From the NCBI RefSeq assembly GCF_000334895.1, contig NZ_BAFM01000014.1, positions 1-64,000 on the forward strand: 64,000 nt of DNA. Reading direction: 5' to 3'. The notes below the pieces were generated by a model. It had not been told where the DNA came from. It searched no databases and worked only from the letters and a program-made list of their open reading frames with translations. This DNA is from Halococcus agarilyticus. Lineage in GTDB: Archaea; Halobacteriota; Halobacteria; Halobacteriales; Halococcaceae. Every line of letters starts with the position of its first letter. The first letter of the stretch is position 1. This document shows, in pieces, positions 1 to 1,310 of this stretch. A program made the position numbers and the translations under genes.

Positions 1-465
1 TCGGATCATCGCATGGGGTCGCTGAATATCCTCTCTATGCGCACTAAGAACGGGAGGCAACCAGCTGCGGGAATTGGGTTCGCTCTCGATGACAACAAGC
101 GAGGCGATCTATCCCTTAGTCGTACCATGGGTGATGGCATCCTCAAAGGATCTGTTGTTTCTGACGGTCAGGTAGTTCAAAAAGGTGCAGAGCAGGTTTC
201 GTACGATGAAATATATCATAGTATGGATGTATCACCCCAGAGTTCTGATGAAGTTTCTTGTTGGGAATGCACGACATACGTCGGAGGCGTATGTGCTGCT
301 GGTGCTGCCCTCATAGCTAGGTTCGGCTGTGGAGCTGCCTGCACTCTGGCCGGATTCCTTGCTCCTGCATGTAAAATTGCCTGTACTGTTGTATTTGCCG
401 CTATCGGTACAGTTATCTGTAGCTTTCCTGCATATTACGGTTGTCGACAAGCCGGTGTCTGCTAA
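1..465 (+). CDS. Halocin C8-like cysteine-rich peptide precursor, 5' end outside window
   Basis: The frame is open to the window edge (first internal ATG at 13), so the gene probably starts upstream. The C-terminal 72 residues hold ten cysteines, beginning CxxC-x7-C and ending in the motif CRQAGVC. Halocin C8, as I remember it, is a 76-residue C-terminal peptide with ten cysteines, the same CxxC-x7-C opening and a CNRAGLC ending, released from a precursor whose N-terminal part gives immunity. The middle cysteine spacings differ. The visible upstream part is hydrophilic and shows no signal peptide. The DNA is clearly lower in GC than the genes after about 860, which suggests transfer. Likely a secreted disulfide-bonded anti-archaeal peptide; activity is inferred. 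Confidence 0.8.
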   Translation, partial: SDHRMGSLNILSMRTKNGRQPAAGIGFALDDNKRGDLSLSRTMGDGILKGSVVSDGQVVQKGAEQVSYDEIYHSMDVSPQSSDEVSCWECTTYVGGVCAAGAALIARFGCGAACTLAGFLAPACKIACTVVFAAIGTVICSFPAYYGCRQAGVC

Positions 466-479
466 CAGGAGTCGTGATT

Positions 480-698
480 ATGAATCGTTTGCCCGTACAG
501 CGGAACGATGCCGGTTGGTTCCCCCTCAAGGCTGGTTTAGCGACCGGAATCACCTTCTTCCTGGGCGCAGTTTTCGTCTGGACCTACTTGACGGACAACT
601 ATTCGTACATACTATTGATTTCATTAACGATGGGTGTCATTTCGGGGACGACATCGTATCTGGCTTGGAACTGGACGATAAAACCCCGCAGTAAATAG
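480..698 (+). CDS. Small two-helix membrane protein next to halocin-like gene
   Basis: 72-residue protein beginning MNRLPVQRND, with two hydrophobic helices (about residues 14-36 and 42-62) joined by a short loop and a basic C-terminus. The ATG at 480 is chosen because an AGGAG ribosome-binding sequence lies at 467-471, just after the stop codon (463-465) of the peptide gene. An upstream in-frame start at 441 would overlap that gene and lacks such a site. Same strand, 14-base spacing and the same low GC indicate one operon with the halocin-like gene. It may help immunity, membrane anchoring or export of the peptide. I recognise no family. Confidence 0.7.
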   Translation: MNRLPVQRNDAGWFPLKAGLATGITFFLGAVFVWTYLTDNYSYILLISLTMGVISGTTSYLAWNWTIKPRSK

Positions 699-858
699 CC
701 AGCCGGTCCGTCAACACCGGAGTTCAGTCCGATCACGCTCGGTGGCTGCCTGCCGGCGCACCGTCCCCGCCGGCTTGGGCTCGTCACTGCTCGGGCGGCG
801 CTCGGTGGCACTCACGCCACCGGCGAAGCTCCGAAGTGACGATCGATCGGGGTGCGTG

Positions 859-1191
859 TTAGACCGACACCTCCGTTCGTGCCTCGCAGTCATGGTTCGT
901 GGCTTCGAGGGTCGCCACGACGGTATGAGTGCCTGCGTCCGGCTGCTCCCACTCGCCCTCGTAGGTGACGGTTTCGCCGGGCGCGAGCTCTTCGGACTGG
1001 AGCGCCTGCGTGAACATCCGTCCCTGTGACCACCGCCAGCGCTCGTCGTCGCCGTCGAGCACCGCGAAGTCCGCGGTGCAGGAGTCACGGAAGGAGAGCT
1101 GCTCGGCCTCGTTGCCCTCGTTTTCGACGGTGAAGACGAACGCGACCCGATCCTCGTCCGTCCGGGTGTCGAGCGTGCCGGTGAGCGTCAT
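859..1191 (-). CDS. BsuPI-type intracellular proteinase inhibitor domain protein
   Basis: 110-residue all-beta protein starting MTLTGTLDTR. It resembles the BsuPI family (intracellular proteinase inhibitor; immunoglobulin-like fold): a strand with FVFTVENEG, then SFRDSCTADFAVLD, an E-R-W-R-W segment, and a late APGETVTYEGEW strand typical of the family. No signal peptide, so probably cytoplasmic. A GTG at 1206 in frame would add five residues; ATG at 1191 is preferred. It stands alone, with the DUF2797 gene divergent on the other strand. The inhibitory function is the family name only; haloarchaeal members are uncharacterised. Confidence 0.7.
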   Translation of the reverse strand: MTLTGTLDTRTDEDRVAFVFTVENEGNEAEQLSFRDSCTADFAVLDGDDERWRWSQGRMFTQALQSEELAPGETVTYEGEWEQPDAGTHTVVATLEATNHDCEARTEVSV

Positions 1192-1310
1192 GGCGGGAGT
1201 GTTCACATCGGAGCGACAAAACCGTACGGGCGGCCGGTAACGGTGAGGAGGAACAGTAGTGATGGAGATAGAACGGCAGTGATTTGCCGAGCGCTTGCCT
1301 ACCGCGCGGC

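Follow-up and report, generated by a model that had tools for sequence, protein, structure and literature searches.

The window analysed here, a stretch of 64,000 nucleotides from Halococcus agarilyticus, begins inside a gene whose product ends in a cysteine-rich domain. What does this gene encode, and would the protein that protects its host be encoded by the same gene or by a neighbour? Base 1 of the window is also base 1 of contig C14 in an assembly of 58 contigs (genome G000), so that the window lacks the 5' portion of the gene. From this base a frame stays open on the forward strand up to a TAA stop at 463-465. Ten cysteines are found in residues 87-154, i.e. the last 68 residues, with a spacing (residues between successive cysteines) of 2-7-11-3-9-3-11-7-5, as the initial annotation had read them, and the domain has both a CxxC-x7-C opening and a C-x5-C closing. 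Features of the locus are summarized in Table 1.

Table 1. Features at the left end of the window and the evidence for each.
Feature	Position	Strand	Evidence
Class-2 halocin C8-like precursor gene, 3' part	1..465	+	Open frame of 154 codons plus TAA; class-2 profile match; synteny
End of the pro-region (N-terminal half)	1..240	+	Pattern G-x-L...R-x-P-x-x-A-x-G, here MGSLNILSMRTKNGRQPAAGIG; alignments of relatives (A1/A3)
VSPQ, candidate processing motif just 5' of the Cys domain	229..240	+	Spotted by eye; motif enrichment in relatives
Predicted mature peptide, ~74 aa, ten Cys, two long helices	241..462	+	Cys spacing; TIGR04449 1-69/69; single-sequence AF2
Two-transmembrane protein of 72 aa, putative immunity	480..698	+	Sequence; downstream-gene enrichment; sub-threshold Pfam Imm17
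AT-rich insert, right edge, up to the conserved flanking gene	699..858	.	Congeners join the epimerase-like gene of contig C19 directly to the 859-1206 gene
Conserved flanking gene, right border of the insert, outside the cassette	859..1206	-	Beside the C19 epimerase-like gene in 7/9 congeners

Two spacing classes were found among the TIGR04449-family genes extracted from Halobacteria. Class 1 is spaced 2-7-3-7-(9..14)-7-(7..14)-(5..12)-(5..7). One of its proteins (G004) carries what we take to be the exact HalC8 sequence, with spacing 2-7-3-7-13-7-8-8-5. Class 2, about 30 haloarchaeal proteins, is spaced 2-7-(9..12)-3-n-3-11-7-5, where n is usually 9-13, and also has versions with eight cysteines; its spacing is mirror-symmetric about the centre, 7-11-3-[n]-3-11-7. 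The window peptide shares the opening, the closing and the ten cysteines of halocin C8, but not its spacing: it follows the class-2 framework 2-7-11-3-n-3-11-7-5 (n = 9). Its middle spacing, taken at first to be new, is the mark of this recurrent class, and the closest framework, that of G403, is nearly identical (2-7-11-3-9-3-11-7-6). In G403 (locus L190), the Tat signal lies in a different frame from the rest of the gene, which may be due to a frameshift or a sequencing error. In two plasmids, from Halorubrum trapanicum and Haloterrigena turkmenica, class-2 genes already bear the RefSeq name “halocin C8-like domain-containing protein”. A survey of archaeal antimicrobial systems by Makarova et al. 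in 2019 reportedly expanded the halocin C8 family, and parts of the picture of class 2 and its neighbour genes may already be published.

Profile comparisons bear out the initial reading of a divergent halocin C8-like peptide. The NCBI model TIGR04449 (halocin_C8_dom), which has matches in 47 of 391 Halobacteria genomes, aligns end to end (1-69/69) with residues 87-154 at 14.5 bits, under its curated cut-off of 24 bits; other class-2 members pass this cut-off, with up to 52 bits. A Pfam search of the precursor fragment returned no family. With an HMM of full-length class-2 precursors built without the window protein, the fragment scored 50.4 bits (E 1.2e-12 among 97,973 sequences). When the Cys domain was shuffled, the real score was reached by 0/2000 composition shuffles and 0/2000 spacing permutations and, with the cysteines held fixed, by 0/2000 shuffles under the full-length model and 5/2000 under the domain-only model. 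Class-2 and class-1 precursor profiles align over their full length (hhalign, 99.6% probability, E 7.7e-24, a score to which the shared Tat signal contributes), and over this whole-precursor alignment the N-terminal halves of the two classes are homologous as well. A tree of 66 proteins sets the two classes apart at SH-aLRT 100 and places the window protein inside class 2; its exact place there is unsure because Cys columns are included and its branch is long. The protein is very divergent (≤25% identity), and no relative was found in the genome contigs, viral contigs or plasmids searched with it. Judged from these alignments, the window gene belongs to the halocin C8 precursor family, as a distant, divergent representative of its class 2.

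The initial annotation had proposed to look for a Tat signal upstream of the fragment, and one was found where contig C19 ends: on its minus strand, at bases 2-289, a frame of 96 aa corresponding to the precursor N-terminus has a Tat signal (MRKDVKANDLNRRSLLKK), reads MRKDVKANDLNRRSLLKKVGTTAGVGVLG... and runs off the contig. On the full-length class-2 profile A1, C19:20-289 covers positions 1-81 and C14:1-462 covers positions 120-289, so that about 0.1 kb would be left unsequenced between the two. The A1 match on C19 is unspecific by itself, since other Tat proteins score as high; C19 is tied to C14 by synteny, the contigs not being joined by sequence. In the congeners that keep the arrangement of Table 1, only tens of bases separate the C19 epimerase-like gene from the gene at 859-1206; in the source genome, these two are set apart by the halocin and 72-aa genes. 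As the precursor gene is split across contigs in the assembly, a frameshift may lie within the gap. The GC content of the insert is 48-50%, against 67-68% for the surrounding sequence, from which we conclude that this two-gene, AT-rich insert is probably an acquired cassette. Farther into the window, between the flank of the cassette and an acetyltransferase-like gene, positions 2101-2547 encode an acidic protein with long Gly/Met-rich repeats (MMGGGGGPGGGGMGGG), which is conserved in congeners.

We consider it likely that the locus codes for a class-2 halocin C8-type antimicrobial precursor and, in a gene of its own, for a dedicated membrane protein conferring immunity, the two lying in an acquired, AT-rich cassette. 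Export of the folded precursor would follow the Tat route, and cleavage directly in front of the Cys domain would free a peptide of about 74 aa; this peptide would form a helical hairpin with five nested disulfides and act against rival haloarchaea, with the cell membrane as its most likely target. For its part, the 72-aa protein would sit in the membrane of the producer and protect it, both genes having presumably been acquired together as one AT-rich cassette between conserved housekeeping genes. We infer these functions from homology and context.

The immunity part of this scheme relies on the second gene of the insert, overlooked in the initial annotation. Its ATG lies 14 bp after the halocin stop, with AGGAG at 467-471. 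Its product has two predicted TM segments and, in Pfam, only weak, sub-threshold matches, among them Imm17 (16.7 bits for a threshold of 25). We counted as a neighbour any ORF of 45-170 aa with at least two TM segments, on the same strand and starting within 300 bp downstream. Such small TM genes follow 13/24 class-2 and 18/48 class-1 genes, making 31/72 for the family; among control genes of the same loci, the count is 9/259 (Fisher p ~1e-10 for each class vs controls, indicative only because the sequences are related). None was found downstream of the 20 members of the halocin C8-type group, nor in a tree clade of 17 rows. Four further class-2 genes adjoin a small membrane protein if the TM threshold is relaxed or the opposite strand included; several class-2 genes are without a clear TM neighbour. 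G403 is followed, 267 bp downstream, by a 73-aa two-TM ORF. Two downstream proteins were confirmed as bPH_2, and a third (G375a) reads like one. In leave-one-out tests for a common family, 3/12 of the small TM proteins beat all block shuffles, and the 72-aa protein reached 14.0 for a best shuffle of 13.9, so that it resembles the others only marginally.

An alternative is that immunity comes from the N-terminal half of the precursor itself, and that the 72-aa neighbour has no part in the system or assists in export or processing. Halocin C8 is made from a 283-aa Tat precursor, ProC8, that also yields the immunity protein HalI, so that one gene, halC8, accounts for the halocin as well as for immunity to it (PMC11509114; PMC8628083). 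The window gene resembles this system in its Tat-exported precursor of similar length and its full-length homology, and class-2 N-terminal halves align with class-1 ones, as a HalI-like role would have it. The window locus differs from the halocin C8-type group in its separate small membrane gene, and its protein scores under the cut-off of the halocin C8 model. The contrast between 31/72 family genes and 0/20 halocin C8-type ones is what would be expected if a separate protein took over immunity elsewhere, and the insert of the window consists of just these two genes. We therefore hold the small TM genes to be probably immunity proteins. In the window, the 72-aa protein is the better candidate for this role and probably protects the producer, and we find immunity from the N-terminal half unlikely, though the strongest of the alternatives.

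The two class-2 plasmid proteins, WP_197427780.1 (H. trapanicum) and WP_012945653.1 (H. turkmenica, pHTUR02), share with the window locus the mirror framework, the Tat signal and a downstream small TM or bPH2 ORF. They differ by n, which is 12 or 11 between C5 and C6 instead of 9, by the families of their downstream proteins, which are not that of the 72-aa protein and, in the case of H. turkmenica, by the loss of C1 and C10. In H. turkmenica, a bPH2 ORF (152 aa, two TM segments) comes after the halocin gene, and then a PH-domain protein. The same combination is known from a bacterial leaderless bacteriocin: the enterocin DD14 cluster has, among its immunity/transport genes, a pair coding for membrane proteins, bPH2 and PH-domain, namely ORF E and ORF F (PMC7332713). 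The neighbour in the window differs from this pair, being a 72-aa two-TM protein without PH domain.

How would the ten cysteines be paired? Cys losses in the relatives usually concern mirror pairs: C1 and C10 are lost together in eight class-2 proteins, C5 and C6 in four class-2 proteins, C3 and C8 in three class-1 proteins, and C3, C4, C7 and C8 in two class-1 proteins, G230 (L093) and G136 (L096). On the tree, the C1+C10 loss and the C5+C6 loss are single events each. Exceptions are G018, without C6 only, G397, without C1 only, G191b, in which C4 is shifted, and G058, which looks degenerate. Randomly losing two of ten cysteines gives a mirror pair with a probability of 1/9, in a test conceived after seeing the data; four kinds of mirror-pair loss are unlikely to arise by chance. 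As the losses fall mostly in mirror pairs, nested disulfides are predicted in the helical hairpin, and the simplest map that would fit both classes is C1-C10, C2-C9, C3-C8, C4-C7 and C5-C6. The initial annotation had considered that the middle spacing might entail a new disulfide pattern; the co-lost cysteines suggest the same nested topology in both classes, and a different topology was dropped since both fit this order. As a separate observation, the class-1 proteins G230, G136 and G058 (L087) retain only five or six domain cysteines.

Modelled by AF2 from its single sequence, the peptide folds into a two-helix hairpin (H5-40 and H45-74), with a pLDDT of 81.9 for the best model and 68 to 38 for the other four, and the hairpin recurs in the model of the 154-aa fragment. 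Sequence and fold searches of the PDB gave no match to the peptide, and a literature search found no disulfide map of halocin C8. Alpha-hairpinins are helical hairpins of the type CX3C-Xn-CX3C. The central C4-x3-C5-x9-C6-x3-C7 of the window peptide and its predicted hairpin recall them, whereas it has ten cysteines, is archaeal and has no detectable homology to them, so that this is an analogy only. As for maturation, the motif [VILA][STAV][TAPVS]Q was counted in 74 relatives, the 5'-incomplete window protein not among them: 23 have it at most 22 aa before the first cysteine, whereas the two 22-aa stretches farther upstream give 4 and 3. VSPQ is a candidate cleavage site. The protease cleaving HalC8 is not known (PMC12893001).

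The same fold could also belong to a secreted Cys-rich protein that is not antimicrobial, for instance a signal, metal-binding or envelope peptide. In its favour, the window sequence is very divergent, and a literature search found no class-2 member that had been assayed and no activity data for any of them. The homology to antimicrobial precursors, the patchy distribution, the low GC content, the insertion between conserved genes and the coupling to small membrane genes all fit a bacteriocin-like cassette instead, and the mirror-pair losses suggest disulfides rather than metal ligands. We regard a non-antimicrobial role as improbable. That the gene is a decayed or non-functional halocin remnant, as its long branch and its score under the TIGR04449 cut-off might suggest, is very improbable, given that all ten cysteines and the exact class spacing are kept, that both gene fragments (C14 and C19) are open, and that the neighbouring 72-aa gene has a good ribosome-binding site.

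Under the preferred reading, of a halocin-type peptide and its separate membrane immunity gene, the window cassette belongs to a family already known, as a divergent member, and its cysteine layout is a recurrent mirror-symmetric variant rather than a unique one. The mirror framework and the paired Cys losses provide a concrete predicted disulfide map that would hold throughout the family. The pattern of neighbouring genes suggests that, for most of these archaeal peptide antibiotics, immunity comes from a membrane protein with a gene of its own. This would alter the view, based on halocin C8, of a single gene, and offers a route to more archaeocins. More tentatively, and with the odds slightly against it, most halocin C8-type loci, including that of the window, may be two-gene systems, in which a nested-disulfide helical-hairpin killer peptide is paired with a dedicated immunity protein that is small, membrane-bound and exchangeable, in some cases a bPH2 protein as in bacterial leaderless bacteriocins. 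If this is true, the single-gene arrangement of halocin C8 would be a derived exception.

The same genome has a second halocin C8-like precursor, on contig C6 (G000:C6:108452-109204, L062:4453-5205). It belongs to class 1, with spacing 2-7-3-7-12-7-10-5-5 and 52% GC, and is followed by a 52-aa two-TM protein. About 6 kb from it, a Tat-signal precursor (G000:C6:102789-103524, L143) has a different Cys-rich C-terminus (CGGCICTAAPLCAFQFNKLVCEPFINGSCRSFSECNC), and is possibly another secreted peptide.
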